Source: Bifidobacterium polysaccharolyticum
GTDB taxonomy: Bacteria > Actinomycetota > Actinomycetes > Actinomycetales > Bifidobacteriaceae
Assembly: GCF_016101585.1 (NCBI RefSeq)
Contig: NZ_JACFQG010000003.1
Span: forward strand, 125,826-189,825
Length of the DNA: 64,000 nt
Reading direction: 5' to 3'
This document shows, one piece after another, positions 22,517 to 36,838 of the stretch (positions are counted from its first letter, which is position 1; every line of letters starts with the position of its first letter). Below the pieces are notes generated by a model, which saw only the letters and a list, made by a program, of their open reading frames with translations, was not told the DNA's origin and ran no database searches. A program made the translations under genes and the position numbers.

Positions 22517-22707
22517 TGCCATACCTCCAGGATAATCGGCCGTGAAGCTTGCGGGATGTATGTCTGAGGGAATTCTGAAACCTGCAAAGCTGAAGGTGAA
22601 TTGCCGGCAAGGGGCGTAATGGTTGACTGTTTGCAGGCGTTCCAGTCGCTGTTTTATTCTGGCTACATTGCTTTGTTCCTGTGCGCACTGTGGAAGGAGA
22701 GGGACGG

Positions 22708-25083
22708 ATGACAAGGGAGTTGGAGCTTTCGCCACGGCACGGCAGCGAGTTGGTTTCTGTTGAGTATTCGTTGGAGCTTGCGAACGACAAAGGTATAGAG
22801 GCTGGAATTAGCCTTGCTAAAGCGACCGAAGATTTTGGTGATGGAATCTATGTGGAATCCATTGAAGAAGATGCTGCAACTGACCATGTGCAAGATGACG
22901 CGCAGCTTGATTACAAGATAGCTGCAGCTTGTGGGGTGGTTGCTGGTTTATGCGATTCGATTTTTGTTGGCAAATTCTCTCTGGACAGGGCGAACGAGTG
23001 GGGTTCGGAGAAAGTCAATGAATTCGTGGTTTGGGTGGCAAAGCAGCATTCTGGTTTTAGAGGAGAGTCCCTGCGTGATGCCATTCAATTCCTAGAAGAT
23101 CAATATCCTTTTGTTAGCGATAAGTACACAGCCGAATTTGGCGGTGGTTTGCAGCATCATCTCAGGGACTTTTCTCACCACTTCTCCCTTGAAGGATTGG
23201 TATTCTCGATACTTACGCAATTTACCGGAAAGGTATACGGCACCAATCAGTATGGGGATTTCATTGCAGTCCCGGTGGAAGAACAATGGTTCAAGGAAGG
23301 ACTGATCGGCGATAACTTCTGCGAAAAGCTGTTCTTAGGCGCGGTGCAATGGTTCTTTCACATGGCATCAGACATGGCGGGGTCAAGTTCGAATCCCGGT
23401 AAAGGCACGGGGATACCTGGGCCTTTTCTCTCTATTATTAAGGCATTGTCCGTCTTGCCCGTATTTAAAAATGCCATGGATCCTGGCATGGGGGCGCGCA
23501 ATTTCATTTCCAAGATGTTTAATGGGACCTTATTTGCACAACTGGATGATGAAGGTCGTAAAGTGCCTCGTAGGTTTAACCTGCGAACTGAAATCGGAAT
23601 TGTGCATGAACTGGGGCGCCAGGCGCTTCCAGTGTTGCTGAATGAATGCTTGACGCGGGGCTGCTATTTTCTTCATCATCTGTATCTGGAGATGAAAGAT
23701 AATGAGGTCCGCTCTTTGTCCGATTTGAAGCAGCTGGACATGGACCGAATTCTTCCATTCAATAATTCCAGAGTTGTTCGCATGGTATCCATTGCCTCGG
23801 CCACTTTTACTGCGGTGGATCTGGCGGATGCTGCTATTCGGGCTGCATTGGTCGGGTTTACGGAAGGCAGGGTACTTGCCGGCAAGGAGTTCTTGCTGAG
23901 AGTCAACTACGTAGGTGTGACTCGTCTGGTTTTCGCAATAGGTGTGGATGTCAAAACGGTATGGGAACGAAGAACAAGCCACAGGCAGCGGCAGCAAAAC
24001 GACGATTCGGCCGATCGGGCGACAATGGAAACGCTCTCGTTGAAGCCGGAGCATCTATCTGTTCTGTTCTCGATAGAGCGACTGGCGCTTTATGAGGACA
24101 TAGATCGAAGTAAGGCAGTGGATCGAGGCGAAAAAGAAGAATGGTTTGGCAAATGGTCTGAAAGCCTCCCTGCTGACTGCGTTCTTCTTAATCGTGGGCA
24201 AGTGAAAGAGAGAATTGAAGAACTTGTTGCACGAGATGGAACTACATGGAAAGCCTTGGTTCTGATTGAACTTGCACGGTTTGTGCCATATGACTCCTAT
24301 CGTTCTGAAATGGAGTCAGAGGATCCTGACGGAAGGTCAGACTCCTCAATCAAAAGGACTAAACGCCCAAAATTTGATTCAAAAATTCTCGAAGAATTAT
24401 GGCGTGATGTAAGCGGCGATTCGGACAAATCCCCTGTGCAACAGACCGCTAAGGCGCTGAATAAGAATGCAGGCGTATTGGATGGTAGCCGAACCAAAAT
24501 AATTGTCGGTGCTGCCGGAACTGCCGCGGTTGCGGTTGCTACGGGAGGTGCAGCGTTTACATTAGCGCCAGTCATAGCGCCGTTGTTTGCCGGATCGGCT
24601 GTTGCCGGCCTATCTGGTGCTGCTCTTACCAGTGCGAGCCTTGCAGCGGTTGGCGGTGGTGCATTGGCTGCAGGAGGACTCGGTATGGCAGGTGGCACGG
24701 CCATAATCGCTGGTGGCGGCGCAGTCTTGGGTTTGGTTGGTGGTAGTGGGGTAACTGCTGTTACTTCGCTTCTCACTGATTCCAAAGGAGCGTTTGCCCT
24801 CGACGAGTGTTCGAAGCTCCTAACATTTTGCCAATCCGACTTTGCTCAAGCTGATATGAAGCCAAAGACGATTGAACGGATGCGACAAGGCTTGCTCGAT
24901 CAGATTGAACGAATTGAAATTCAGCAGGAGATTCTCTATGGGCGTTCTGGAGACAAGGAATTAGATAAGTCTGAGAAAAAAGAAACGAAGAAGGAGCTTT
25001 CCGGTCTTAAGAAGAGCCTGGGTTACATGCGTAATTGCGAAAGGGAATTGTTGAAGCTGATCAATCAAAAAAGTCACTCGTAG
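22708..25083 (+). CDS. large protein with C-terminal glycine-zipper membrane segment, unknown function
   Basis: 791 residues, not assignable to a named family. Residues 1-60 are acidic. From about 65 to 240 is a conserved-looking region with GVVAGLCDSIFVGKF, LQHHLRDFSHHFSLEGLVFSILTQFTGKVYG and IAVPVEEQW. Mainly helical sequence follows, with a charged stretch at about 420-450. At about 600-690 lies a Gly/Ala-rich hydrophobic block (GGGALAAGGLGMAGGTAIIAGGGAVLG) like a glycine zipper or membrane hairpin. A lysine-rich coiled coil (about 720-790) ends the protein. ATG 22708 has AAGGAG 8 nt upstream. The layout of soluble sensor, membrane-inserting segment and coiled coil suggests a membrane-acting effector, by inference only. 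It is divergent from the HNH nuclease gene in an accessory island. Confidence 0.72.
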   Translation: MTRELELSPRHGSELVSVEYSLELANDKGIEAGISLAKATEDFGDGIYVESIEEDAATDHVQDDAQLDYKIAAACGVVAGLCDSIFVGKFSLDRANEWGSEKVNEFVVWVAKQHSGFRGESLRDAIQFLEDQYPFVSDKYTAEFGGGLQHHLRDFSHHFSLEGLVFSILTQFTGKVYGTNQYGDFIAVPVEEQWFKEGLIGDNFCEKLFLGAVQWFFHMASDMAGSSSNPGKGTGIPGPFLSIIKALSVLPVFKNAMDPGMGARNFISKMFNGTLFAQLDDEGRKVPRRFNLRTEIGIVHELGRQALPVLLNECLTRGCYFLHHLYLEMKDNEVRSLSDLKQLDMDRILPFNNSRVVRMVSIASATFTAVDLADAAIRAALVGFTEGRVLAGKEFLLRVNYVGVTRLVFAIGVDVKTVWERRTSHRQRQQNDDSADRATMETLSLKPEHLSVLFSIERLALYEDIDRSKAVDRGEKEEWFGKWSESLPADCVLLNRGQVKERIEELVARDGTTWKALVLIELARFVPYDSYRSEMESEDPDGRSDSSIKRTKRPKFDSKILEELWRDVSGDSDKSPVQQTAKALNKNAGVLDGSRTKIIVGAAGTAAVAVATGGAAFTLAPVIAPLFAGSAVAGLSGAALTSASLAAVGGGALAAGGLGMAGGTAIIAGGGAVLGLVGGSGVTAVTSLLTDSKGAFALDECSKLLTFCQSDFAQADMKPKTIERMRQGLLDQIERIEIQQEILYGRSGDKELDKSEKKETKKELSGLKKSLGYMRNCERELLKLINQKSHS

Positions 25084-25108
25084 GAGATTACGGCAGCCGC
25101 CAAGGACG

Positions 25109-25222
25109 ATGTCGGATTGGCCTGATCAAGTACAGCGCTGGAGCGGGAATCATGCCGAGATGTATAAGCATCGGATTCTGCAGATTGTCATCTTGGGGAA
25201 TGCAGGGGATATCTCTGATTAA
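25109..25222 (+). CDS. small ORF, 37 aa, doubtful
   Basis: Begins 25 bp after the large membrane-type protein gene, with AAGGA only 2 nt before the ATG, and ends TAA at 25222. The peptide is polar and Trp-containing (MSDWPDQVQRWSG). It could be a real small partner or a gene remnant. The rest of the 25084-25416 gap holds only the promoter/operator array. Confidence 0.25.
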   Translation: MSDWPDQVQRWSGNHAEMYKHRILQIVILGNAGDISD

Positions 25223-25325
25223 AGTCTTGTTCTGCTTTTTAGTATTCCAGGTTACTGATTGCATTGGAAATGTTAAAGGGGGTCCAGTTCTCTCTGCTGC
25301 CAGACTGTTTGTTTAAGGGTAGTTT

Positions 25326-25382
25326 TAACTGAATTCAGTTATCCTTTACCGGAATTCAGTGAAAAAGTATATAATTCAGTTA
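25326..25382 (+). promoter_or_regulatory. promoter with three helically phased AATT-centred operators
   Basis: Site 1 is the perfect 16-bp palindrome TAACTGAATTCAGTTA (25326-25341). Site 2 (GGAATTCAGT, 25351-25360) and site 3 (TATAATTCAGTTA, 25370-25382) keep the right half. AATT centres are at 25332, 25353 and 25373, so spacing is 21 and 20 bp, two helical turns. A consensus -10 TATAAT lies at 25370-25375 inside site 3, with a weak TTTACC -35 at 25345. This is a classic array for cooperative repression, and the gene it precedes encodes a DNA-binding wHTH protein. Confidence 0.75.
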
Positions 25383-25416
25383 AGGCCAATAGCTCAGAAC
25401 AGGTGGTGGACGACGG

Positions 25417-27066
25417 ATGGCGTGTGAGTACGGCAAGGAGACTTTGTCCAAGGAATTCAAAAGTGATCTCAAGGGCTTGCCGGACTCCGAATTGGTAGAA
25501 GCAGTTGTTGCCTTGGCCAATACGGATGGCGGATGCTTATACTTGGGCGTTGAGGATGATGGCACGCCTACCGGTGCGCAGCAAAAGCATCAGGATCCGG
25601 TTGGAATGGCTGCAATGATTGCCAATAAGACTGTGCCACCGATATCGGTTCGTGCGCAATTGGTTGGCAATGACATCGCGGTTATTCAGGTCGAGGTGCC
25701 CAAGACGCAGAGCGTGGTATCAACAAAGTCGGGTAAGATTCTCCGTCGCATGATGAAAGTGGATGGCACGCCTGAAAGTGTACCCATGTATCCGTATGAG
25801 TTTGCAACTCGTCTTTCTGATCTGGGAAAGCTCGACTATTCAGCTCAGCCGGTGAGGGGATCAACTCGGGAAGATTTTGATCCGTTGGAGCGTGATCGTC
25901 TGCGCAGGATCATCGCCTCTTATCAATCTGGTGACCAGAACCTTCTTGAGCTTTCGGATGAGGATATGGAAAAATCGCTGCGCCTTGTCGTATCGGTCGA
26001 TGGGGATTTGACACCAACCTTAGCTGGCTTGCTGCTCATTGGCAACGAAGATGCATTGCAACAGTTCGTTCCGACGAATGAAGCGGCTTTCCAAGTTCTT
26101 AACGGCACTGACATCAAGGTGAACCAGACGTATCATGGCCCTTTGCTCAAGACCATAGAGCAAATATCCGCTTCGTTTAAGCCGTGGAATCCGGGGACGG
26201 AGCTGAATGTGGGCCTGTTTTCTTCGATTGTCCCCGAGTTTGACGAAAGGGCTTTTCGAGAGGCTTTGGTTAACGCATTCGGCCATAGGGACTATTCGGT
26301 TCTCGGACGTGTGCGCGTATTGGTGGACGATGCTGGCTTGACCATTGCCAATCCCGGTGGGTTTGTGGAAGGCATAAATGTTCATAACCTGCTTACAGCT
26401 GAGCCACATGGGCGTAACCCATGTCTGATGGATGCATTGAAGAGATCTGGCCTCGCCGAACGCACTGGGCGTGGGATCGACCGCATTTTCGAAGGTGCCC
26501 TGAACTATGGCCGTCCTCTGCCTGATTATTCGAGATCCAACGGGCGTGGGGTATCAGTGCTGTTGCCGCGCAGTGCGCCCGATAAGGCGTTTGTGGAGCT
26601 GCTGGCCGAGGAGCGTGAGCGTAGTGGCAAATCCATGTCTCTCGATGGGTTGCTTATTCTGGACAAGCTCAAGAGAGAGAGGCGCTGCAGCTTTGACGTG
26701 TTGTCGAAATCGATGGACATGAGCGACCAGCGTCTACGCACGGTTTTGGGGCAACTGACTGAATCTGGTCTTATCGAAAGCGTTGGCACCGGGGCTCGCC
26801 GAACATATATGTTGGGTGCGAAGGTGTATCGGCGTAGCGGCAAGGTAGTGGAATACGTTCGCCAATCGGACATCGATAGAGTTCGGTACTCCGAATTAAT
26901 CATCAAGCTGATCCATGAACAAAAAACGGTGAGTAGAAACGACGTAATGGAACTGCTGCACCTTAGCGGGAATCAGGCGTATTACCAGTTGCGGAAGCTC
27001 GTTGATGAGGGGCGTATCAGAAAAGTTGGTAGTGGAAAACGTAAAGCACGGTACGAGGCGGTGTAG
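25417..27066 (+). CDS. AlbA_2/Schlafen-type DNA-binding protein with GHKL ATPase and winged helices
   Basis: 549 residues. The N-terminal AlbA_2 (Schlafen AlbA_2) domain begins with EFKSDLKG and has VVALANTDGGCLYLGVEDDG (about 8-130). The middle holds a HATPase_c_4 region with EALVNAFGHRDYS (about 281-295), VDDAGLTIANPGGF and a Gly-rich GLAERTGRGIDRI loop. The C-terminus has two winged-helix segments (about 405-450 and 505-549). These 'ATP-binding, putative DNA-binding' proteins are common in accessory islands and some belong to defence or toxin-antitoxin-like loci; their activity is poorly known. The ATG at 25417 has only a weak GGTGG upstream. Palindromic operators both before and after the gene suggest autoregulation. 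Different in neighbours and codon use from the core genes. Confidence 0.82.
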   Translation: MACEYGKETLSKEFKSDLKGLPDSELVEAVVALANTDGGCLYLGVEDDGTPTGAQQKHQDPVGMAAMIANKTVPPISVRAQLVGNDIAVIQVEVPKTQSVVSTKSGKILRRMMKVDGTPESVPMYPYEFATRLSDLGKLDYSAQPVRGSTREDFDPLERDRLRRIIASYQSGDQNLLELSDEDMEKSLRLVVSVDGDLTPTLAGLLLIGNEDALQQFVPTNEAAFQVLNGTDIKVNQTYHGPLLKTIEQISASFKPWNPGTELNVGLFSSIVPEFDERAFREALVNAFGHRDYSVLGRVRVLVDDAGLTIANPGGFVEGINVHNLLTAEPHGRNPCLMDALKRSGLAERTGRGIDRIFEGALNYGRPLPDYSRSNGRGVSVLLPRSAPDKAFVELLAEERERSGKSMSLDGLLILDKLKRERRCSFDVLSKSMDMSDQRLRTVLGQLTESGLIESVGTGARRTYMLGAKVYRRSGKVVEYVRQSDIDRVRYSELIIKLIHEQKTVSRNDVMELLHLSGNQAYYQLRKLVDEGRIRKVGSGKRKARYEAV

Positions 27067-27536: not shown

Positions 27537-27570
27537 GAAAAAAGGGATTTTTGGAAAACCAAAAATCCCT
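27537..27570 (-). terminator. Rho-independent terminator, probably originally of tRNA-Ser
   Basis: Perfect 12-bp stem AGGGATTTTTGG / CCAAAAATCCCT with an AAAA loop (27543-27570), followed on the minus strand by six T (27537-27542). It lies immediately beyond the attL copy of the tRNA 3' end, where the tRNA terminator would be before insertion of the element. Confidence 0.8.
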
Positions 27571-27598
27571 GCTGGCGGAGGATACGAGATTCGAACTC
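27571..27598 (-). repeat. attL: 28-bp duplicate of the tRNA-Ser 3' end
   Basis: Identical over 28 bp to 36749-36776, covering CCA, the acceptor 3' strand and the T-arm. The next bases diverge, so it is not a working tRNA. Direct orientation relative to the intact tRNA copy. Confidence 0.9.
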
Positions 27599-27656
27599 TG
27601 ATCTTTCATAATCCCCGCCGTTGCAAAGGTTATTAAAGAACCAGGAAAAGAGGGAA

Positions 27657-27676
27657 CCACCTAATTCACCACCTAA
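27657..27676 (+). repeat. putative integrase arm-binding repeat (left)
   Basis: CCACCTAATTCACCACCTAA differs at one base from the copy at 36599-36618 and lies 59 bp inside attL. The duplicated CCACCTAA half-sites look like tyrosine-integrase arm sites. Confidence 0.55.
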
Positions 27677-28872
27677 GTGACGTTTTCAAACGTACCAAGA
27701 CGGCGCATAATGACGCTCCAATGATAACTCGAACGAGCAAATCCAGCCGCTCCTAGGGGCGGAGAACAGGGCTCGCGAGTGTCTCTATTTCCAGAATTAA
27801 CTGACGTGATGATGACTCCAACTAGTTGTGGTGAAGATTTGACTAATGGGGCCAGGGGGGACCTAGATTCAATCTCGGGGGCCTCGCTTTCGGCCACCTA
27901 GCCCCATGTCCATGATGGACATGACAGAATCTGGGCGGGGATTGGAAACCCCATGTTCTTGGACTATGAGGTGGGATGAGCCAGGCTCATGCCGCTTCAA
28001 TAGCGTGCATGAACATGCGCAACTGCCTTGCCGACAGGCGTGTAGGATTCACCGCCCCTCTTCAAGCATGTGTATGACACACTCAATTGGCGGACATTTC
28101 CACTAGAGGGAGATTCTCCAATAGTGGCTATGATGACCTCAAATGGCCCAACAAAGTCAATTCCTGTGCATCTCGAACCTGTTATTAAGCAGGCTACTGT
28201 CCCGCATGCCGCAGGCATGACGCCCATGGCCGCAACGCGGGGAATCGTCCCAACAGATAGGAACTTGCGGATACATCTGCATTGTGGCGGCATATCCTCT
28301 AGGGTGCATGTGCTGATCTGTTTGCTCTGACACCAGGAAGTCAGTGAGGGCATTGTTACGACGGTCGCCAATGGCAGAGGTCGGCCGTGACAGGCCGGTG
28401 GAAGGGCTTGCCACCATGTTGCTTACCCCTGATCGCTAAGGTGGCTCAGCCTGACTTAGCCCGTCTTGACTAGGGTGGGTTTCACTGGTACTGAACCCAT
28501 GGACTACGCCCGCGTGCACAACTATGGTCACGACGGGCACGCCCTAAGCCCAGCTTAGATCTAGCATAAAGTTAGAGGCGTTCGTTTGGCAATGGATTGG
28601 GAGAAAGACCGGACGTGATAGTTTTGAACCCTCTACACTTCCGAGCCGTCTCGCTGACGGTCTGAGGATCCACCCCGAACGGTACTCCGACCACCTGTGT
28701 GCACCCCTGCTTCAGCTTGTGGTGCTTGGTCGGTTCATTGGACCTACGTAGGTATTAATCCTAGTGGTCAAAAGTTGAAATCGCGGCCCAGGAAATTGCT
28801 TCGACTACTTTGTGGGGGATTCTTCAAACAAAAACAATAATAGTCCAGTAAAGGACGAAAATAATATGCGTA
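27677..28872. other. 1.2-kb stretch at the left end of the element without a convincing gene
   Basis: Only short open frames exist on both strands (for example 27997-28371 minus and 28070-28330 plus), without ribosome sites or recognisable motifs. Composition is mixed and the region may be a decayed former cargo gene. The upstream part of the older layer (27362-27536) also shows no gene, only AATGTTGC/AATGTTAC direct repeats near 27499-27517. Confidence 0.5.
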
Positions 28873-29628
28873 TCACAGACCATAGCCAATCTTGAGAATA
28901 TGGTTTGGAGGTGGAGACGAGAGATCCATTTCATTAATTTCAATACGGGGGCCAAACTGGACAGAGGCTGTTAAGCCCTCCTCGCCCTTTATCGGATACT
29001 CATAGCTATTGCCTGTATCGTCTTTCCATGTGATATGGAGAGTGTATTGAAGTTGAGTAGTTTTTTTCCAAGGTCCCCTATAAGGGAATGGGTAGTTCTC
29101 GTTCCCTGTGTTATTAAACCATGTGTGCTCTGTATTTGGTTTCAGAACACTTACTTGCAAATCTGCCTTTGTCGGGCAGTTTCTAGACCTTGGTTTTTCA
29201 TCATTGCATTCCCAATAAGCTCTGATTTCTAATGCGACACCGCCCCCAACATTGGAGATTGCTAGTTTACAGTTTAGATAGTGGTTAACAAGAAAATCAG
29301 TGGAACGGGTTACTTCGATGATGGGAACCAGACGCGGCAACAATTGATGTTGATGGGATTTATACTCCCCAAAAGCGACCATGGCAGCTACAATAGCTAC
29401 GAGAAAAGTACCGAATTCCCACCATGCAGACCAATCAATATTCCCGGCGAACACGTCTGCGATTGTCGCACGAAACTCATGGTTGTGCTTGAGATATTGC
29501 CAAATCAGTGGAGTGATAATAAAAAGCACGACAAGACAAACGAAAACAACAAGTATGATGATTTTTCGAATGACCGGCCGCTGCAGGTGCCAATACTTCT
29601 TTACTTTATCTAAACTTAGCTTGCCCAT
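28873..29628 (-). CDS. two-helix membrane protein with extracytoplasmic or cytoplasmic beta domain, unknown
   Basis: 251 residues, not recognised. A basic N-terminus is followed by a strong helix (IIILVVFVCLVVLFIITPLI, about 23-42) and a second (FGTFLVAIVAAMVAFGEY, about 72-89). A polar, beta-rich domain of about 155 residues follows with a CNDEKPRSRNC pair of cysteines and a C-terminal aromatic/proline segment. The gene is clearly richer in A and T than the surroundings, a sign of recent acquisition. ATG 29628 has only a weak GGGG upstream. It is the only long gene in the left half of the element and may be cargo. Membrane topology is predicted from hydrophobicity; function is unknown. Confidence 0.65.
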   Translation of the reverse strand: MGKLSLDKVKKYWHLQRPVIRKIIILVVFVCLVVLFIITPLIWQYLKHNHEFRATIADVFAGNIDWSAWWEFGTFLVAIVAAMVAFGEYKSHQHQLLPRLVPIIEVTRSTDFLVNHYLNCKLAISNVGGGVALEIRAYWECNDEKPRSRNCPTKADLQVSVLKPNTEHTWFNNTGNENYPFPYRGPWKKTTQLQYTLHITWKDDTGNSYEYPIKGEEGLTASVQFGPRIEINEMDLSSPPPNHILKIGYGL

Positions 29629-30322
29629 GCCCCAATACTAGCGTCTCGTAAAGTTGATTAGGGATGTCAACAACGGAATTGATGACACCCCTTTGCCTTC
29701 TCTTAGCCCCTGTATCAGGCTAAAACAGGATAAAAACAAATTGGAAAACCTGAGATGCTCGAAAAGCAGTTATGGCGGCGCGGGAGAGGTCGGTTCGATT
29801 GGCCTTCTTCTGACCCATTACTCCGTATAGGAATCCAACCGCCACCCAGAGTTATTGTGACAACGCTATTTCAGGTCGTTGGCCTGCTGTGCCTATTGGC
29901 TTCTCTCAATTATCGTGACGAAGGTAAAACAGGATGGAGGTGGTTGGTTCGCGAGCGCCCATGTCGTCGGTTGGATGCTCCTGGTGGCCTCATGGTGAAG
30001 GGTCTGAGCGTCTTGGGTTACTTATGACTCCACTGGGTTGCATCCGAGTAAAAATGACTCTTACGGCGCATGCATGTTTGGTGGTGCTATCCGGCGGTTA
30101 TATTCACCCGCCCGGGAAGTATCCCCCCACCCACCCCGTTATGAACCCAGCTTGGAGTGAGCTACCTGAGCTTAGAAGAAATTATTTCGACAATGTGACC
30201 AACATCACACTATTGTTTTGAGAATATGCCTATAAACGGCTTCTTCATGCCGCTTCTCGGTATCATACAAATAAGTTCTACGACAAGGAGATACCTGACT
30301 CGCTGAACAGAAAGGAGCAAGC
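29629..30322. other. intergenic stretch in the element
   Basis: A plus-strand frame at 29755-30027 (90 codons) lacks a ribosome site and has an Arg-rich, domain-less translation, so it is not called. I see no RNA gene. Confidence 0.45.
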
Positions 30323-30454
30323 ATGCACAGCAATTTATGGCTCTTGGTGATCGCATTCATCTCGGCAAAGTTGATCAATCGCCTAAGCCCAGTACAAGCA
30401 ACTGTAGCACTGATTCTGATTTTTGCAATCAGCACCATCGTCTGTATGTGGTGA
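30323..30454 (+). CDS. small hydrophobic membrane peptide, 43 aa
   Basis: ATG 30323 follows a strong AAAGGAGC with 4-nt spacing. The 43-residue product has an amphipathic to hydrophobic start (MHSNLWLLVIAFISAKLI), a short polar hinge (NRLSPVQ) and a second hydrophobic segment ending in CMW. This is two short membrane spans, or one hairpin. Single small membrane peptides in mobile elements are often type I toxin-like, holin-like or membrane-regulatory. A perfect 13-bp hairpin follows 22 bp after the stop, making a compact stand-alone unit. Function is inferred only from size and hydrophobicity; no antisense RNA could be proven. Confidence 0.6.
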   Translation: MHSNLWLLVIAFISAKLINRLSPVQATVALILIFAISTIVCMW

Positions 30455-30476
30455 AATTGTAGAGAACCTGAATCAT

Positions 30477-30512
30477 TGTGGCTTGCCGAGCTATAAAAGT
30501 CGGCAAGCCACA
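30477..30512 (+). terminator. strong hairpin after the small membrane peptide gene
   Basis: TGTGGCTTGCCGA (30477-30489) pairs perfectly with TCGGCAAGCCACA (30500-30512) around a 10-nt loop. It is not followed by a T run, so termination may be inefficient. Confidence 0.6.
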
Positions 30513-30570
30513 CCCCATGTCATTTCGTTCCAAGCTGCTGTAGTTCTATCTGACTGTCAGCCGCCCGTTC

Positions 30571-30903
30571 CTATTTGCTTGATGTTGGTGTTGTTGCGGT
30601 GTTGATGGTGAGTCGGGCGAGCCGGTTGGGGCGGAGGACGCCGAAGCCCAGGCGCATGGTGACGCGGATGGCCAGGGAGTCGTTGGCGAAGTATGCCTGG
30701 TCGCTGGTGGCGACGGCGGCTTGGCTGGCGGCGCTGAGTACCTGGCTGGCGGCGCTGAGCACCTGGCTGCTGTCGTTGAGCAGGATGGTGTATTCACGCA
30801 CCCCCCCCCCCCTATGCGGCTGTGGGGAGGGAGGAATAACGATGCGCAGGAGTGTGTCGGCCTTCTTGCTCTGTTGCGATGGGAGTGTGCCCCCTGCGAT
30901 CAT
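30571..30903 (-). CDS. hypothetical protein with poly-G tract in its 5' part
   Basis: The minus-strand frame of 110 codons begins MIAGGTLPSQQSKK, passes through a 12-G run (read as R-GGG-V), and continues VREYTILLNDSSQ. Two VLSAASQ repeats and a basic, beta-like C-terminus (AIRVTMRLGFGVLRPNRLARLTIN) follow. The part after the tract reads like a real protein and could instead start at the GTG (VREYT) that ends the tract. A change of one G would shift the frame, so expression may be phase-variable. Not recognised; GC-rich DNA gives long frames by chance, so confidence is limited. Confidence 0.4.
   Translation of the reverse strand: MIAGGTLPSQQSKKADTLLRIVIPPSPQPHRGGGVREYTILLNDSSQVLSAASQVLSAASQAAVATSDQAYFANDSLAIRVTMRLGFGVLRPNRLARLTINTATTPTSSK
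30801..30812. repeat. 12-nt poly-C tract
   Basis: Run of 12 C (poly-G on the coding minus strand) inside or at the start of the hypothetical gene 30571-30903. Slippage-prone. Confidence 0.8.
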
Positions 30904-31169
30904 CGCTTGGGGCTGTTATGGGGATCGGGGTCATGGCGATCTTGGTCGGGTGCTTGGTGGGGATGGGCAACCGGTCATTTCCCAGAACCTGGCCTTGCGG
31001 CGTTAAGGGTAACGGGAGCCCCGACGGGGTATGCCCAAGCCTGCACGTAAGTCGATCGTCGCACATCTGCGCTCAGGCTGGATGGCAAGCGTGGGTCTTC
31101 TGGAACTTTCCCGGTCGCGGGGGGATACAGGCAATATGCCCCTGGGTGCTGGGAGCCGGGGAAGGGGGG

Positions 31170-31256
31170 CTCGCCCCCGTGGTCAGGGGGAGGCGTCACG
31201 CTCATGCGGCCCCTGACAGATAATCAGCGACTCGCCCCCGTGGTCAGGGGGAGGCG
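31170..31256. repeat. pair of 26-bp direct repeats with hairpin potential
   Basis: The same 26-bp sequence, beginning CTCGCCCCCGTGGTCAGGGG, occurs at 31170-31195 and 31231-31256. Each copy can fold as CCCCC-GTGGTCA-GGGGG. They precede the small gene at 31296. The rest of the 30904-31295 gap holds no supported gene. Confidence 0.75.
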
Positions 31257-31295
31257 AGGAGACTCGAAAAACACCATGAACAAGGAGATTGAGCA

Positions 31296-31430
31296 ATGAA
31301 CAACATGGCTGATGGGACGGGGCAGGAGCAGCCGGAGGCCAGAAGCGTGGAGAACACTTCATTGACCTACCTGTTCAAGCAGTTGCGGGTCAGAACTGGG
31401 CAGAACGGGTCTTTAATGGACCAGGTCTGA
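31296..31430 (+). CDS. small ORF, 44 aa, possibly frameshifted
   Basis: ATG 31296 has AAGGAG 9-14 nt upstream and encodes 44 polar residues (MNNMADGTGQEQ, then NTSLTYLFKQLRVRTGQ). From about 31349 another plus-strand frame reads GEHFIDLPVQAVAGQNWAER and onward to DIDQDGIQIYAQS, with TAG at 31527-31529. That second frame looks more protein-like than the tail of the first. The original gene may have been about 75-80 codons and split by a frameshift. A strong terminator hairpin follows. Not recognised. Confidence 0.4.
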   Translation: MNNMADGTGQEQPEARSVENTSLTYLFKQLRVRTGQNGSLMDQV

Positions 31431-31537
31431 AACTGTTGGCCTTGTGCCGGATTGGGGATGCTTTGGGGACTCAGTACACGTTGGATGACATAGACCAGGA
31501 TGGCATCCAGATTTACGCCCAGTCGTAGGCCAGGGAG

Positions 31538-31593
31538 AATAGGCGGGGCCTCCGGCCGTCCACACGAGGGGATGGCCGGAGGCCCCGCTGCTC
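31538..31593 (+). terminator. very strong GC-rich hairpin
   Basis: GCGGGGCCTCCGGCC (31543-31557) pairs perfectly with GGCCGGAGGCCCCGC (31574-31588); the stem extends further inward with one wobble pair. It closes the small ORF region and isolates it from the AT-rich origin-like stretch. Confidence 0.7.
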
Positions 31594-31630
31594 TTCGAGG
31601 GGTGTTGGGGATACGGGGAATGTTTTACAC

Positions 31631-31804
31631 ATGTTATAGGCGTTATACCGTTATATGTGTTCTCCTGATTGGGTTCCCGTGTTATATAAGTGCGTTATAT
31701 TCGGTATACAGGCGGGTTTGTTTGTATATCATGTATACCGCTGTATATCAGTCGACTATCACACGTCACCCCCTTATAGGAGTATGCATATAACGGTATA
31801 ACGC
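31631..31804. other. AT-rich, repeat-bearing origin-like region
   Basis: 174 bp of AT-rich DNA in GC-rich surroundings. An 18-bp perfect inverted repeat lies at its ends: GCGTTATACCGTTATATG (31640-31657) and CATATAACGGTATAACGC (31787-31804). Between them GTTATA, GTATAC and GTATAT hexamers recur in mostly direct orientation. It lies immediately after the 3' end of the replication-type gene, as the origins of several phage satellites do. Replication function is inferred. Confidence 0.55.
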
Positions 31805-31823
31805 TTTGGGCTGCGGGTCAGTG

Positions 31824-33185
31824 TCAGTGTGAACATACAGGTAGGGTCCACAGATCGTTCGAGGTTCGTCCTGTGGTCTCACCGACATGCTCTACCAGGC
31901 CATCCTCGTACAAACCCTCAAGGACCCGGTAGCATAGGGTGCCGTTCCTGCCGCACCTCTGCCTGAGCACATACCCCTTGATCCCCTCACGGGCATCATC
32001 CTCCCCCAGCGAGCGCAGTATGGCGTTCCTTACAGTCTGCTCCTTCCTGCACTCAAGACTCTCGGAGGCCTCATCCTTGATCTGCATGGAGTCCGCTATG
32101 CGTGTCCTCTGCGCCTCCCTGCCCAGTTCAAGGCATCTTCTCCTGGTCTCAATGGAATCCGACGTGATGGCCTTGGCGGCCAGCCAGTCATCCATGTCGA
32201 CCTGTTCGCGGCCGTCGGCCATGGCGAGGATTCCAGCCACTTTGACGCTTACCAGCAATTTGTGGGTGTCCAATGGGTCGATTCCCACTCCGCGTAGCGC
32301 ATCGAGTCTTTGAGCGTCAACCTCCTTCCATACGGCATCCGGATAATCCAGGATGGTGAGTGGGTAGCGTTCATCGGGGTTGAGCATGTTACTACGGTCA
32401 CGCTGCTGATAGAGAAAGTCTAGGTCATCCCGATCCGGGTCATATGGAATCAGACCCAAACTGACCGGCAGGCTGCCTTCAGGGCGATCGGGACGCTGGT
32501 CGGGTGCCTGGGGATCACCGGTGTTGGCCCACAGGAAGCGCTGTGGCAGGCCGGTGCCGCTCTCGTTGGTTAGGATATCCGCGTTGGCGGGTTGTACACC
32601 TGTGACCAAGGCCAGGGAATAGCCATAGCGTGGAGCCATGAGACGGTCCGAATCGTTCTTGTTCCAGGCCCCCAGGGTCTCGCCGCTGAACGCGCTGGTC
32701 AGGGTTGGTACGATCGTGCTACCCTGTCTGGACGCGGCCCCTCCCAGGGAACGGATCTCGGGAATGTTCAGCAGGGCGCGGGGGTTGGCGCAGAACAGTT
32801 CACTGTCGTGGGCCTTGGGGTCCTCCGGGTTCTCCCGGAACCTTCTGCCCGCGAAGATGGCTACTAGGCCTTCGCCCGATGCCGGCTGGGTCTCGACCGC
32901 CCCACGGAGGTTGGGGATGAGGCTTTCGGCCGTGCTGATTGTGCTGCCCTTTCCGGCTCCCGAAGCACCCCAGAGGGCCAGGAACAGGTTCAGGGTGATA
33001 GGACTGGACCCCACAAATGCGGGAGCAGTCACCGTGGGCGGGATCAACGCCGAGAGACGGGTCAACACCGTGTCTAGCAGGGCCGTCGGTGCCACCCGGC
33101 AGGCTCTGGCGTAAGCTCTCACGTAGGCGAACAGGGGACGGCCCTCCCAGAAGTCCTTGTCAAGCAACTGGCTCACGTCGCTCAT
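31824..33185 (-). CDS. P-loop replication protein (DUF3987-like primase/helicase)
   Basis: 453 residues. LFLALWGASGAGKGSTIST (about 75-90) is a Walker A loop, with a downstream acidic block and DILTNESGTG. Domain order and length resemble DUF3987-type or virulence-E/primase-helicase proteins of integrated plasmids and phage satellites. The C-terminus (about 390-453) reads like a winged helix (YVLRQRCGRNGTLCYRVLEGLYEDGLVE). It probably drives replication of the excised element from the adjacent AT-rich region. ATG 33185 has AAGGTGG upstream and overlaps the previous gene's stop (ATGA), so translation is coupled. Helicase or primase activity is inferred. Confidence 0.68.
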   Translation of the reverse strand: MSDVSQLLDKDFWEGRPLFAYVRAYARACRVAPTALLDTVLTRLSALIPPTVTAPAFVGSSPITLNLFLALWGASGAGKGSTISTAESLIPNLRGAVETQPASGEGLVAIFAGRRFRENPEDPKAHDSELFCANPRALLNIPEIRSLGGAASRQGSTIVPTLTSAFSGETLGAWNKNDSDRLMAPRYGYSLALVTGVQPANADILTNESGTGLPQRFLWANTGDPQAPDQRPDRPEGSLPVSLGLIPYDPDRDDLDFLYQQRDRSNMLNPDERYPLTILDYPDAVWKEVDAQRLDALRGVGIDPLDTHKLLVSVKVAGILAMADGREQVDMDDWLAAKAITSDSIETRRRCLELGREAQRTRIADSMQIKDEASESLECRKEQTVRNAILRSLGEDDAREGIKGYVLRQRCGRNGTLCYRVLEGLYEDGLVEHVGETTGRTSNDLWTLPVCSH

Positions 33186-33784
33186 GCCGCCACCTTCAGA
33201 CGGAGGTCTCCAGCGACCTTGGACCATGGGTCTCCCTCCATCAATCCGAGCCTGCACAGGACCCGGGAGGATTCCCTGCCGTCCGCGAGTGCCTCGCTCT
33301 CGTACCGTCTGGCGCAGGAGACCAGGCGTTGACGCATGTAGGACACGTCCATGCGAAAACGGTCAGTGAGCATGCCCGACTCCAGCAGGGTGAGTATGCG
33401 TTGGTCGCTGCCCACGGTTCTGAGAGGCAGCATGGCCGTTGGAGGGGCGGTGCTGGGTGTGAAGGCCCATGTTCCGTTCTCGCTTAGGAGGCTGGCCGCT
33501 TGGACCATGATGCAGGCACCTAGGTCGTGGGTGCTCGCGAACAGAGCTATAGGGATTGGGGTGATGTGGGAGGCCAGGGCCAGGAGCGCCACCGCCTGGG
33601 TCCGCGAGCCCAGGTTGTGGGTGAGGGTCAGGGCGTATGGTCCCCATGCGGTTTCCAGCAGGTAGCAGCTGGTGGTGGACAGGGTGTAAAGGATACGGTC
33701 GGGGTCAACGCCGACAGGTATCATGGCATTGTCTTCAGAACCCTTCAGGCCGCCAGCTTGGAGGGTTTTCTTTTGCTCGATCAT
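33182..33784 (-). CDS. hypothetical protein, 200 aa, coupled to the replication gene
   Basis: No recognised domain. The translation starts MIEQKKTLQAGG and has an alternating beta/alpha core with VALLALASHITPIPIALFAST (about 65-85) and a basic, Arg-rich C-terminal third (RFRMDVSYMRQRLVSCARRYESEAL). A DNA-binding or replication-accessory role is possible. Its stop overlaps the start of the P-loop replication gene by 4 bp, and it begins 8 bp after the HTH gene, so the three form one transcription unit. GAGGA lies about 12 nt before the ATG. No function can be given from sequence alone. Confidence 0.6.
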   Translation of the reverse strand: MIEQKKTLQAGGLKGSEDNAMIPVGVDPDRILYTLSTTSCYLLETAWGPYALTLTHNLGSRTQAVALLALASHITPIPIALFASTHDLGACIMVQAASLLSENGTWAFTPSTAPPTAMLPLRTVGSDQRILTLLESGMLTDRFRMDVSYMRQRLVSCARRYESEALADGRESSRVLCRLGLMEGDPWSKVAGDLRLKVAA

Positions 33785-33792
33785 GGTCGGGT

Positions 33793-33981
33793 TCAGTCCT
33801 CGATGAAGGATTTGAGGCTGGAGTAGCTGACCAGGAAGATGCGCCCGACCTTGCGGGCCCTGACCTTTCCCTCGTGTATGAGCTTGTAGGTGGTCTTGGT
33901 GTCCTTGAATCCCAGGAGCCTGGTGGCTTCGGGAACAGAGACCGATAAGGGTTCGGTGATGGTTGTTGCGGGAATAGACAT
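33793..33981 (-). CDS. AlpA/excisionase-like helix-turn-helix protein
   Basis: 62-residue protein with a MerR-like HTH_17 domain: LSVSVPEATRLLGFKDTKTTYKLI (about 11-34), then a basic wing KVRARKVGRIFLVSYSSLKSFIED. This is the usual form of small excisionases and AlpA-type activators encoded near integrases. It should bind element ends or a control promoter to promote excision or gene expression. ATG 33981 is preceded by TTAGGA; the frame extends to 34158 but without a ribosome site or domain. It begins the HTH - unknown - replication operon. Confidence 0.78.
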   Translation of the reverse strand: MSIPATTITEPLSVSVPEATRLLGFKDTKTTYKLIHEGKVRARKVGRIFLVSYSSLKSFIED

Positions 33982-34202
33982 GGTTGTCCTAACCGGTGAA
34001 GACACGACAGGGTACACTTCACCTAACTCGGTAAGTCTGCTAATTACTTCCCCGTTCGACCTTGGCTGGGTCACTACGTGGCACGAGTTACTAAGCGGAT
34101 CTTTTATCTCCGATGGAGATGGCTGTACCGCCCATGAGCCTTCCACGTGAGCCACCACATGGAAACAAACACCTGTTCAAGGCATCTACTGATAGGATAT
34201 CA

Positions 34203-35063
34203 CTACTTAGCGGGCCAACCCCCATTCAACATGTCGGAGTATTTGCTGGTTGGCTCAACCGGGGGAACTCCTTGCTTATATGCTCTCATAAAGGCCGATA
34301 GTGCTTCGGATACTGTTGTAGGCCCTTTAACGAAATCGGGATTATTTGTCGGCAGTTTGTTCATTTCTTCATACGTGTTAAAGAAAAGGTCCAACGCCTC
34401 ATGCGATACTTCAGCGTCGTTAATCTCTCCGTTCTTGTAACGCCACTGTTCAGTGTGCCAGAATGCATATGCATAGCTGGACAGATCTACCAGACCAAGA
34501 CGAATGTGCTTATCGTCCTCTTCGGCATTGCGCACATGCGTCAATAGCTCGCCCGCTAGTCCAGTGAAATAAGTGCCCAGTTCTGATTCCTCTCCGTCAA
34601 GATAATCAGCGAACAGTTCATCGCGTCGTTTCAACATGCCAGGTACGCCATATTCACTCTGTGCTATTTCCCAATTGCACAGAATGGAATATCTGCTGGT
34701 ATGGATTCGCATTTTCTCGATATGCTGTTCTTCCAGATACCGACTCAGATACTCTTCCACCTGGCCAATGATGAGTTGAACCATTTGCTTACGTCCGTCT
34801 GACCAATCGCCATCGCGTTGAATGTTAAAAACGGCATTCAGGCCGGCATGGGCACCGCGAAGAAGCCCCTGCCTATGCTGTTCGAATTCCCAATAACCTT
34901 GTTCGACATTAGCCAGTCCGGTACCCCAATACCCTTCCGTCGGAGCCAACTCAGCTTGCAGCTCCCATAAGTCATCGTCAAACATGTAATCCCGGCCATA
35001 CGCAAGATCCAGGAATTTCCTCAATGTCTTCTTGTGCTCTCTTGTAACTTGCACCATGCTCAT
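34203..35063 (-). CDS. hypothetical cargo protein, 286 aa, next to the integrase
   Basis: Not recognised. The sequence is predominantly helical, acidic and aromatic-rich, with no signal peptide or membrane span. Notable blocks are GLLRGAHAGLNAVFNIQRDGDW, QMVQLIIGQVEEYLSRYLEEQHIEKMR, YLDGEESELGTYFTGLAGELLTHVRNAEEDDKHIRLG and AYAFWHTEQWRY. GC is lower than in the integrase and replication genes, which marks it as separately acquired cargo. The ATG at 35063 overlaps the integrase stop; a second ATG at 35057 is better spaced from AAGGCGG. The site beside the integrase is a usual place for anti-phage or fitness genes in satellites. That role is inference. Confidence 0.68.
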   Translation of the reverse strand: MSMVQVTREHKKTLRKFLDLAYGRDYMFDDDLWELQAELAPTEGYWGTGLANVEQGYWEFEQHRQGLLRGAHAGLNAVFNIQRDGDWSDGRKQMVQLIIGQVEEYLSRYLEEQHIEKMRIHTSRYSILCNWEIAQSEYGVPGMLKRRDELFADYLDGEESELGTYFTGLAGELLTHVRNAEEDDKHIRLGLVDLSSYAYAFWHTEQWRYKNGEINDAEVSHEALDLFFNTYEEMNKLPTNNPDFVKGPTTVSEALSAFMRAYKQGVPPVEPTSKYSDMLNGGWPAK

Positions 35064-36517
35064 ACCGCCTTGCTCAATAGAATCGTCATCGTTTCCGCCT
35101 GCACCTGGGCAGAGAAGCAGGCCAGGACCCTGTTCCGTCTCTCCTGGGAAAGACCGTTCAACACTTGGACTCGAACCTCTAGGTCCATGGATTCCAAAGC
35201 GGCCGCGAGCGCATGCAGCTCCTGTCCGCTCTCCTGGATACCCTCAGGCGGCTGCGCTGGCTTTCCGCCGTGTTCAGCCGCCTCGCCATCGGCCTCTATG
35301 CCTGCGAGGATCTTCCCACGCTCGCTCTCGGTGACATGCTGATAGTGCATGGCCGTACTGACCTGGGTGTGACCACCCTGGGCCATGATGGCCTTGATGC
35401 TGTTGGTATGCTTGGCGACCTCGGTCAGGGCCCGATGGCGCAAATCATAGAGCCGCAGCTTCCTCTGCTCCAGGCGGGGAACGGCCTTGCGGGCCCGATA
35501 CCAGGCGTTGCGAACCGACTGGTCGAATACCAGGCCTCTGGTGCGCTCGCCGGTGAACAGCCAGGCGTTGGGTCTGTCCTCCACATAGGTGTCCAGGTGG
35601 TGACGGATGTGGGGGATGAGGAAGGGGGGCAGCTCCAGGTCGCGTACGCTGCCCTTGGTCTTGGTGCTGCTCACCTCCATGACTTTGTGTCCGTCCTTCA
35701 TGATGCCCTTGGCGCTCTTGGTGATGTGCACCACCCCGCCTGAGCCATCCTCGACCAGTTCGATGTCCTTGCGCTGCAGAGCGTATGCCTCCCCTGGCCT
35801 GAGGCTGAGCACTCCGACTAGGTAGAGAACCAGGGAGAAGCGTCCGGGCATGGCCTCGACCAAGGCGTTCAGTTCCTCCATGGACACGTCCCCGTAGGCC
35901 CGGTTCGAGTTGGGCTTATCCACCCTTAACAGCACAGGGTTGTTCCTGAGCAGGGTGGTGCCCTCCTCATCCAGGGGTTTGGAGCAGGCCTCTTTGAAGA
36001 TGGCGCTGAGCAGCTCCCACACATGTCGCTTGATACTGGCACCCTCTCCGGCCTTGCCGACCTTCATGGAATCGGCCCAACGCTGGATGTCTTTCGGGCG
36101 TATCGCAGCCATGGACATGTCCCCCAGGATGGGTAGCAGGTCGTCCCTGAGGTACTGCTCGTACTTCTGCCGGGTGGTTGGCGCTATGGGCTCTCCGTTC
36201 GCCTTGCGATGCTTTTGGAGGTATGCGGCCGAGTATTGGGCGAAGGTGACGGCTCCGGCTTTGCGTGAGTCCTCCTCGATTTGTGGCGGCTCCCAGGTGC
36301 CCATGCGTATGGCGGTCTCGGCCTCGTTGAGCCACCGCTCCGCCTCGGTCTCGAAACCTACGGGGAAACGTCTCGTTATCCGCTTGGGGAGTCCCGGCCA
36401 ACGCGAGTAGGCGCTGACAGGTGGTTGGTAGCGGGCTTCGATGTACTTACGACCGGACCTAGCATCAGTCTTTAACGGCATGGAACCGAACCTTCTGCGC
36501 CTCGCCCTCTTCGCCAT
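35060..36517 (-). CDS. int: tyrosine-type site-specific integrase of the tRNA-Ser element
   Basis: 485-residue tyrosine recombinase. The N-terminal AP2-like arm-binding part runs through MGTWEPP, followed by a SAM-like core-binding domain (VTFAQYSAAYLQKHRK, about 90-200) and a catalytic domain with Arg in SLRPGEAYAL. The box II segment YDLRHRALT keeps the Arg but has Tyr where His is common; box III is GGHTQVS and the nucleophile Tyr lies in AMHYQHV. A C-terminal tail of about 80 residues follows. It catalyses recombination between the 28-bp att sites. ATG 36517 has AAGGCGG 6 nt upstream; the longer frame to 36565 is unsupported. It lies next to attR and tRNA-Ser, and its stop overlaps the cargo gene's start. 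Confidence 0.93.
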   Translation of the reverse strand: MAKRARRRRFGSMPLKTDARSGRKYIEARYQPPVSAYSRWPGLPKRITRRFPVGFETEAERWLNEAETAIRMGTWEPPQIEEDSRKAGAVTFAQYSAAYLQKHRKANGEPIAPTTRQKYEQYLRDDLLPILGDMSMAAIRPKDIQRWADSMKVGKAGEGASIKRHVWELLSAIFKEACSKPLDEEGTTLLRNNPVLLRVDKPNSNRAYGDVSMEELNALVEAMPGRFSLVLYLVGVLSLRPGEAYALQRKDIELVEDGSGGVVHITKSAKGIMKDGHKVMEVSSTKTKGSVRDLELPPFLIPHIRHHLDTYVEDRPNAWLFTGERTRGLVFDQSVRNAWYRARKAVPRLEQRKLRLYDLRHRALTEVAKHTNSIKAIMAQGGHTQVSTAMHYQHVTESERGKILAGIEADGEAAEHGGKPAQPPEGIQESGQELHALAAALESMDLEVRVQVLNGLSQERRNRVLACFSAQVQAETMTILLSKAV

Positions 36518-36563
36518 GGATCGCCGCCTTCCGAACACCCTCGCCTGACACATCTTGCATGGC

Positions 36564-36618
36564 AATTAGGTGGTGAGTTTGAGCCTCTGGGAATTGCGCC
36601 ACCTAACTCACCACCTAA
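36564..36618. repeat. putative integrase arm-binding repeats (right)
   Basis: TTAGGTGGTGAGTT (36566-36579) is the inverted copy of the AACTCACCACCTAA inside CCACCTAACTCACCACCTAA (36599-36618). The latter matches the left copy at 27657 in direct orientation. The cluster lies between the integrase start and attR. Confidence 0.6.
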
Positions 36619-36714
36619 CTTAGCATGTTCAACGGTCCCAAACGGAACTAAAAGGATAGTCGAAAAACGAGGAGAACAGCTGGAAAACGGCGAAATACCG
36701 GCAATAATGGCATG

Positions 36715-36748
36715 AAAAAAGGGCCTTGAACGATGGTCCAAAACCCTG
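36715..36748 (-). terminator. element-supplied terminator after tRNA-Ser
   Basis: Imperfect stem AGGG..TTG / CAA..CCCT (36720-36747) with six T on the minus strand (A run at 36715-36720), directly after the tRNA. It appears to replace the native terminator now stranded at attL. Confidence 0.5.
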
Positions 36749-36776
36749 GCTGGCGGAGGATACGAGATTCGAACTC
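36749..36776 (-). repeat. attR: 28-bp att repeat inside intact tRNA-Ser
   Basis: Same 28 bp as attL. Recombination between the two would leave one complete tRNA gene and release a circle of about 9.2 kb. Confidence 0.9.
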
Positions 36777-36838
36777 GTGAGGGCGTGAACCCAACACGCT
36801 TTCCAAGCGTGCGCCATAGACCACTAGGCGAATCCTCC
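36751..36838 (-). tRNA. tRNA-Ser (anticodon GGA)
   Basis: 88 nt including an encoded CCA (36753-36751). The acceptor stem GGAGGAT/ATCCTCC has 7 pairs, the anticodon loop is CTTGGAAAGC within a GCACGC..GCGTG stem, a variable arm is present, and the T-arm contains GTTCGAATC. The anticodon GGA reads UCC/UCU. It is the integration target of the element on its left and still complete. Confidence 0.93.

Follow-up and report, generated by a model that had tools for sequence, protein, structure and literature searches.

Small phage satellites and the locus under study

In the parts of the published accounts available here, to which all statements on described systems refer, phage-inducible chromosomal islands (PICIs) and staphylococcal pathogenicity islands (SaPIs) carry a replication gene followed by an origin with two sets of iterons, and the Ccm protein of SaPIbov5, a satellite-encoded capsid-protein homologue, leads to small capsids (PMC6092414). 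The element considered here lies in a 64,000-nucleotide stretch of DNA from Bifidobacterium polysaccharolyticum (contig NZ_JACFQG010000003.1, positions 125,826 to 189,825; hereafter the window, with positions counted from its first letter), inserted at a tRNA-Ser(GGA) gene. It shares with the PICIs a site-specific integrase with att repeats, an AlpA/xis-like helix-turn-helix (HTH) gene ahead of the replication module, a rep gene with an origin of two iteron sets directly after it, and a size near 9 kb, and some PICIs likewise have a single capsid-protein homologue (SaPIbov5 Ccm, PmCI172; PMC6092414). It differs from them in occurring in the Actinomycetota, in a Rep lineage with relatives in Gordonia and Mycobacterium phages, and in that some of its relatives encode a major capsid protein (MCP) plus a scaffold, its own MCP being a fragment. 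We put at about three in four the probability that this element belongs to a family of small, integrative, PICI-like phage satellites of the Bifidobacteriaceae and is partly decayed, with most of its capsid gene lost. The int, AlpA/xis-like and Rep genes are still open, and an iteron origin is retained; among the PICI packaging and interference genes (terS, cpm, ccm), only a C-terminal MCP remnant was found in the window, and an intact MCP occurs in six of 20 relatives.

Other satellites resemble the element in part. The capsid-forming PICIs (cf-PICIs) also encode a capsid protein, but theirs is accompanied by a protease, a portal, connectors, both terminases and HNH in about 14 kb on average, whereas here an MCP and scaffold, at times with TerS or HNH, are found in about 8.3 kb (PMC10690885, PMC10803314). 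The window holds only the MCP end of such a full head and packaging module, and the portal profile was unmatched genome-wide (a search that covered no TerL profile). The Streptomyces satellites MulchRoom and MiniFlayer are likewise actinomycete satellites with encapsidation genes, but carry TerL, a portal, a head-tail adapter and direct terminal repeats and, as far as the account available goes, lack key replication genes (PMC10690885). The phage-inducible chromosomal minimalist islands (PICMI) of Vibrionaceae are similar in their minimal set of integrase, AlpA (PF12728) and DUF3987 primase; they differ in the fis gene at their insertion site, in the packaging of concatemers and, in the part of the description available, in having no capsid-remodelling gene (PMC10803314). 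The window element is inserted in tRNA-Ser, not in fis. More generally, a survey suggested that actinobacterial prophage-like elements of <15 kb could be satellites (PMC10023795). A literature search at the level of titles and the starts of abstracts, without preprints and most subscription journals, found no satellites of Bifidobacterium, and a Bifidobacteriaceae satellite family with an MCP plus scaffold only is apparently undescribed.

Integration site and gene order

The element is bounded by a 28-bp att repeat that copies the 3' end of tRNA-Ser(GGA) and is exact at both of its positions, giving an att-to-att size of 9,178 bp in a host genome of 2.23 Mb. No third match occurs in the window at ≤3 mismatches, and none of 100 shuffles had any. 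Inward from the tRNA, the minus strand carries the integrase, a 286-aa gene, an HTH_17/AlpA-like gene, a 200-aa gene and Rep, and then the origin. An earlier reading from the letters of the DNA alone (the sequence-only reading) had described direct repeats of the tRNA 3' end, an integrase beside the tRNA, a 62-aa HTH protein, a P-loop protein taken as the replication gene and an AT-rich inverted-repeat region directly after it; its coordinates, gene order and features were all correct.

27543–27570, minus strand: displaced chromosomal tRNA terminator, a terminator-like hairpin; similar sequence adjoins the tRNA in the empty sites G010 and G020
27571–27598, plus strand: distal att repeat, duplicating the tRNA-Ser 3' end; the sister element in G003 has a partial copy (~20 bp) at its own distal end
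27657–27679, plus strand: candidate arm-type integrase site TCACCACCTAA (repeat D1), elsewhere in the window found only beside int
35060–36565, minus strand: tyrosine integrase, ATG start possibly at 36481; above the Pfam cut-offs for Phage_integrase and Phage_int_SAM_3
36566–36618, unstranded: candidate arm-type sites, an inverted pair at the int end (inverted repeat I20)
36720–36747, minus strand: element-borne replacement tRNA terminator, a terminator-like hairpin; the sister element in G003 has a similar hairpin at the corresponding position
36749–36776, plus strand: att repeat, tRNA side, an exact 28-bp match
36751–36838, minus strand: tRNA-Ser(GGA), the intact integration target (tRNA prediction)

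The sequence establishes a site-specific insertion in the 3' end of tRNA-Ser(GGA) in which the tRNA is kept whole, the predicted chromosomal terminator is displaced and the element supplies one of its own. As a whole, promoter and terminator scans gave site numbers not above those of shuffles (terminators overall: 7 found, 8.0 expected). The TCACCACCTAA motif has 3 matches in the window compared to 0.8 expected, a count that is weak by itself because 5 of 100 shuffles reach 3.

A remnant of a capsid gene

The sequence-only reading had seen no virion gene, and on this point it was wrong, since the end of a capsid gene is present between the origin and the distal att repeat.

30571–30801, minus strand: remnant of an HK97-type MCP gene, C-terminal part only (MCP searches and profile)
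30065–30132, unstranded: stretch with a counterpart downstream of the decayed MCP of the same-genus locus L096 (81% identity over 68 bp)
29384–30098, unstranded: stretch common to the G003 sister element (74% identity)

The last ~57 residues of the MCP are kept. A profile built from 20 satellite MCPs (A7), searched against all six frames of the window, found the remnant at 63.6 bits (E = 1.5e-18; profile positions 221–277 of 278), with the next-best piece at E = 2.4. Single MCPs used as queries gave the same place: that of L046, taken as a family query, matched 30586–30774 on the minus strand (E = 6.8e-8), and the MCPs of three elements matched the remnant at E = 3e-13 to 1e-11. Another genome of the genus has a decayed element at tRNA-Arg (L093), and to the MCP of that element the fragment is 83% identical over 63 amino acids and 93% over 162 bp. 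The A7 profile also matched the PDB capsid structures 1if0 (named GP5; E = 5.1e-12) and 1ohg (E = 6.3e-12), both of which we take to be the HK97 capsid, and the window fragment is on this basis read as the end of an otherwise missing HK97-type capsid gene. The remnant is found in the host genome with a satellite MCP query or profile and is missed by the PF05065 profile alone.

Replication module and iteron origin

Replication in this element would depend on a P-loop protein (Rep), the gene upstream of it and the AT-rich region that follows.

31543–31588, unstranded: 19-bp GC-rich inverted repeat after the origin (repeat I4)
31640–31804, unstranded: iteron replication origin directly after rep, with an AT-rich inverted repeat (31640–31666 and 31778–31804)
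31824–33185, minus strand: Rep, P-loop protein, probably an MCM-like AAA+ replicative helicase (PHROGs, AF2, Foldseek, tree)
33182–33784, minus strand: 200-aa replication-module protein, coupled to rep through ATGA
33793–33981, minus strand: HTH_17/AlpA-like protein, 62 aa from its ATG (HTH_17, E = 3.3e-5)

Rep matched the phage DNA polymerase/primase families phrog_28894 (1.9e-42) and phrog_11515 (8.7e-35), with the alignment to primase/polymerase profiles limited to their C-terminal parts. Sequence profiles gave no convincing relative among solved structures. An AF2 model built from 20 sequences (pLDDT 91.0) was used for a Foldseek search, in which all 50 matches listed, of 1112, were MCM chains (best E = 1.9e-6; query-normalised TM-score ≤0.43), and Rep is probably, by its predicted fold, an MCM-like AAA+ helicase. 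Its ATG overlaps the stop codon of the preceding 200-aa gene, a family of seven members, the window's included, every one of which lies just upstream of rep; the 200-aa ORF had zero Pfam or PHROG families at E = 1. The HTH protein scored 24.5 bits against HTH_17, below the cut-off of 27, and is a probable excisionase and regulator.

Five copies of the iteron CGTTATA, over the two strands, are found at the window origin; across 200 shuffles the best 7-mer reached at most 4. Over the 300 bp that follow rep, the copies of one 7-mer (both strands) outnumbered those of all 200 shuffles for 17 of 21 elements, and this 7-mer differs among most elements; for the other four, some shuffles did as well (L037, 1/200; L050, 11; L052, 19; L053, 199). 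Among MCP-bearing elements with other types of Rep, the 7-mer clusters were weaker or absent in several cases (counts without shuffles). An alignment of 11 of the 21 origin regions, selected for likeness and including that of the window, has two shared boxes near CCTACTCCCGCAAGGG and AAACCCCAATGATTCCAACG, and the window copies depart from the consensus.

Relatives across the Bifidobacteriaceae

Rep homologues were found in 25 of 189 Bifidobacteriaceae genomes, the element's own included, with named matches in B. tibiigranuli, B. mongoliense, B. myosotis, B. pullorum, B. tsurumiense, B. miconisargentati, B. avesanii and B. jacchi; the closest Rep is that of B. tibiigranuli. Twenty rep-bearing loci were fetched out of the 29 other places listed. 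Of these 20, 17 lie between repeats of the end of a tRNA or tmRNA gene (5.9–9.7 kb), and six carry an HK97-type MCP that passes the Pfam cut-off, with a prohead protease fused to it in one case. Phylogeny of 30 Reps grouped the 22 element Reps, with that of the window, in one clade (100/99) that excludes 8 Reps from viral contigs and from genomes of other actinomycetes (8 rows out of 13 such loci: L054–L064, L075, L076). The MCP-bearing members are spread over several Rep subclades.

One satellite MCP matched 32 of the 189 genomes at E ≤0.001, again with the element's own, and the weak end of these matches includes other capsids, such as that of the L097 prophage. Twenty further loci with an MCP match comprised 16 satellite-like loci with an MCP of 275–295 aa (13 att-bounded with an integrase), three with a decayed MCP and one read as an ordinary prophage (L097), which served as a control and in which a run of terminase, portal, protease and capsid genes was read by eye. 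Within the genus of the window, the genomes L092 and L095 have an intact MCP. Att-bounded elements with an MCP measured 8.28 ± 0.52 kb (n = 19, 6.9–9.1 kb), compared to 7.58 ± 1.20 kb without one (n = 11; Levene p = 0.004, Mann-Whitney p = 0.04), though the MCP-bearing sample was partly picked by the MCP search and is biased to that extent. The comparison covers neither the window element nor the decayed L093 and L094, the L097 prophage and the incomplete or unbounded L035, L038, L044, L096, L102, L104 and L108; the bounding repeats of L047, L050, L052 and L106 are only 14–16 bp.

Gene content was surveyed in two sets of proteins. For the 20 rep-bearing relatives, 109 of 119 proteins of 60–394 aa were scanned (five integrase and five MCP rows were dropped), and Pfam recognised 13 families: seven HTH, one integrase, two HNH, one Terminase_6 (TerS, the small terminase, in a single protein) and two others. 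PHROG families in this set, among the 25 of 90 listed, included head scaffolding (phrog_9857) in three proteins, two superinfection-exclusion families (three proteins each), a DNA transposition protein (three) and a ‘Zot-like toxin’ label (three). For the MCP-bearing elements, 74 of 96 listed proteins were scanned (L093, L094, L096 and L097 were not used, and the 22 proteins omitted are encoded between int and rep), yielding PHROG matches to small terminase (three), two scaffold families (phrog_9857 in three proteins) and HNH; no portal, large terminase or tail family appeared among the 25 of 50 PHROG families listed. The 12 Pfam families of this set were replication proteins, other ATPases, regulators, HNH and one scaffold, with neither portal nor TerL among them. 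Conjugation, portal, large-terminase and tail genes were not found by the family scans of either set (among the PHROG matches listed), and the sequence-only reading had named conjugation or plasmid-maintenance genes in close homologues as evidence to the contrary: by Pfam, the 109 small proteins of the rep-bearing relatives contain no relaxase, FtsK or partition family.

Matches in virus and plasmid collections

When the satellite MCP of L048 was searched against 50,697 phage records (tblastn, E = 1e-5), matches were limited to WillG and nine other Mycolicibacterium aichiense ‘phages’ (ten records within OR387111–OR387121; 10.9–11.0 kb) at 25% identity, with no match in any phage record >11.1 kb; no plasmid record matched the satellite MCP. 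These entries are similar to the present elements in their size of ~11 kb and their related MCP, and differ, judging from one annotation of the ten, in a serine integrase, a tape measure and head-tail adaptor and stopper genes, and in being deposited as phages. The same annotation, that of WillG, includes a 97-aa terminase and lists no portal or large terminase. It is possible that WillG (L159, OR387121.1, 1–10866) is a satellite isolated in particles and deposited as a phage. Literature searches on M. aichiense phages and on SaPI Rep and MCM found nothing related or relevant.

Scans of IMG/VR with small alignments recovered 11 contigs with a relative of Rep and one with a relative of the MCP; scans with single proteins recovered none. 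On one IMG/VR contig (L065, 3895–9649), two satellite-type MCPs flank a tRNA cluster, perhaps as two neighbouring satellites.

Occupancy of the tRNA gene within the genus

Inspection of 12 same-genus loci at tRNA-Ser(GGA) revealed two sister elements (G003, G011) and two empty sites (G010, G020), in the latter of which a terminator-like sequence stands directly beside the tRNA. The sisters have an integrase at 89% (G003) and 70% (G011) identity, an HTH gene at 81% and 55%, respectively, and an AAA_25 protein in place of the window Rep; the 200-aa gene also occurs in the G011 sister (44% identity). Replication proteins thus vary among elements at this tRNA. Integrase remnants were found in G009 and G021. 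The remaining loci (G004, G007, G008, G012, G019 and G025) had no integrase match beside the tRNA, but a clean junction with the left flank of the window was absent there too. The window Rep occurs in one of 27 same-genus genomes, its own, which together with the empty tRNA sites indicates that the element is accessory and not, as a fixed presence in all relatives would have it, a stable part of these genomes.

Alternative origins of the element

The sequence-only reading had left open whether this was a phage satellite or an integrated cryptic plasmid. The satellite is favoured by relatives with a capsid gene (some also with scaffold, TerS or HNH), by the lack of relaxase, FtsK and partition families in the proteins scanned, and by the element's own capsid remnant. 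That the element is instead an integrated cryptic plasmid or a self-replicating integrative element, never packaged and with a capsid fragment gained by chance recombination with a neighbouring satellite, is unlikely. The open reading frames of int, xis and rep, accompanied by an origin, would suit it, as would the 14 of 20 rep-bearing relatives in which no MCP was found (three are cut by contig ends), and the parts appear to be of mixed origin, because the MCP piece matches elements of the same genus and Rep matches other Bifidobacteriaceae. However, Rep had only two distant matches in 72,556 plasmid records, compared to 65 phage records matched, none of the 109 scanned proteins belonged to a plasmid-maintenance or mobilisation family, the MCP recurs across several Rep subclades, and this att site is also used by sister elements whose replication proteins are different.

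Loss of the late genes from a full prophage could have left an HK97-type capsid fragment and a phage-like integrase, and Rep homologues occur in Gordonia and Mycobacterium phages and inside proteins of 747–831 aa on IMG/VR contigs. Such an origin is nevertheless very improbable, given that Rep falls within the clade of element Reps, that the 19 att-bounded relatives with an MCP are all of 6.9–9.1 kb while the L097 control has its full run from terminase to capsid, and that the satellite MCP reached no larger phage genome in the tblastn search. The actinomycete integrative and conjugative elements (AICEs) have a core of int, xis and rep, in this order, in a tRNA gene, and the window element has that order too. 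Descent from an AICE that kept this core and lost its FtsK-like transfer gene is given hardly any weight: no FtsK/SpoIIIE-type gene was seen in the main ORFs of the element, and no FtsK, TraB or relaxase family in the 109 small proteins of the 20 relatives or in the large extra proteins of L050 and L052, and a capsid gene was found in six of these relatives. For the same lack of a transfer family in the relatives' scanned proteins, an integrated conjugative element was rejected.

Several results weigh against a satellite. The nearest relatives of Rep (L034 and L035, 45–47% identity) are among the many without an MCP, and the other ~220 positions of the MCP profile did not turn up in a search of stop-free pieces from the window's six frames. 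The integrase matched 339 phage records, all at <60% identity, and being phage-like it is not a gene of satellites only. No CI/Stl-like repressor was recognised by Pfam among the proteins of the window element; a Cro/CI-type gene lies beside int in several relatives. The MCM-like assignment of Rep draws on TM-scores ≤0.43, and in the Rep tree the outgroup has long branches. The host genome had no match to the portal profile PF04860 or the capsid profile PF05065, so that no resident helper was found; a portal gene is present in five of 27 same-genus genomes. Packaged forms are not evident in IMG/VR, because only one contig carries a related MCP. A helper, induction, excision and packaging are steps that we infer for a satellite.

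Proposed cycle and significance

If the element is a satellite, the HTH_17 protein would act with Int in excision, and the MCM-like Rep would load on its own iterons and amplify the excised circle. Complete relatives would then combine their own MCP and scaffold with the portal, terminase motor and tail of a helper to form small heads holding ~8 kb. The window copy, without an MCP, would at best be packaged in the helper's own capsids, or be stranded; its packaging is doubtful because the MCP is lost and the host genome gave no match to a portal or an intact capsid. The element is probably defective in its packaging half.

A broader proposal, which we hold tentatively and at slightly less than even odds, is that these elements form an undescribed, widespread Bifidobacteriaceae family of ~8-kb capsid-encoding satellites, among the smallest satellites of dsDNA tailed phages. 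Their own small shell would be made from MCP and scaffold only, with portal, motor and tail from the helper, and the shell would hold genome size in place; divergence of the iterons among the Rep-origin pairs would keep coexisting elements from cross-replicating.

In the gut communities of infants and bees, bifidobacteria are among the main members. Should intact members of the family be packaged, they would be new gene-transfer agents for bifidobacterial hosts, a system for studying how capsid size is determined by a satellite MCP with so few genes, and a source of ~20 natural Rep/iteron pairs for the study of origin specificity. The window copy illustrates the decay of such an element.

Accessory genes and neighbouring features

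Two further proteins are encoded within the element.

34203–35063, minus strand: 286-aa protein, function unassigned; overlaps the int stop codon
28873–29628, minus strand: 251-aa predicted membrane protein, cargo (ORF; weak sub-threshold Pfam and PHROG matches only)

The 286-aa protein has two remote homologues in the other 188 genomes (L157, 1054–1872; L158, 1363–2268), and as each directly follows an integrase-like ORF (by eye), it may be a partner of the integrase and not random cargo. Its AF2 model was unusable (pLDDT 45.5). A role in defence was rejected for both proteins, as PADLOC gave no match. A mini-CRISPR array was considered for two 26-bp GC-rich direct repeats (31170 and 31231; span 31170–31256) with a spacing of 61 bp, and was rejected, a 24-base pattern finding just these two copies genome-wide at ≤3 mismatches.

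Candidate defence genes are carried by sister elements, namely an MrcB_N/NOV_C protein (PDC-S36; L153, 9148–10128) and PDC-S42 (L146, 4639–5508). Directly beside attL, outside the element, a defence-like cluster at 21674–27066 encodes an HNH restriction-type protein (PADLOC, 1.3e-161), an 800-aa BnzB-like protein (2.3e-46) and an AlbA_2 protein; this stretch was matched in only some of the 12 same-genus loci. Within the element, a hydrophobic plus-strand ORF of 43 aa (30323–30454) with a good ribosome-binding site and a hairpin after it, noted by eye, could encode a small membrane peptide.

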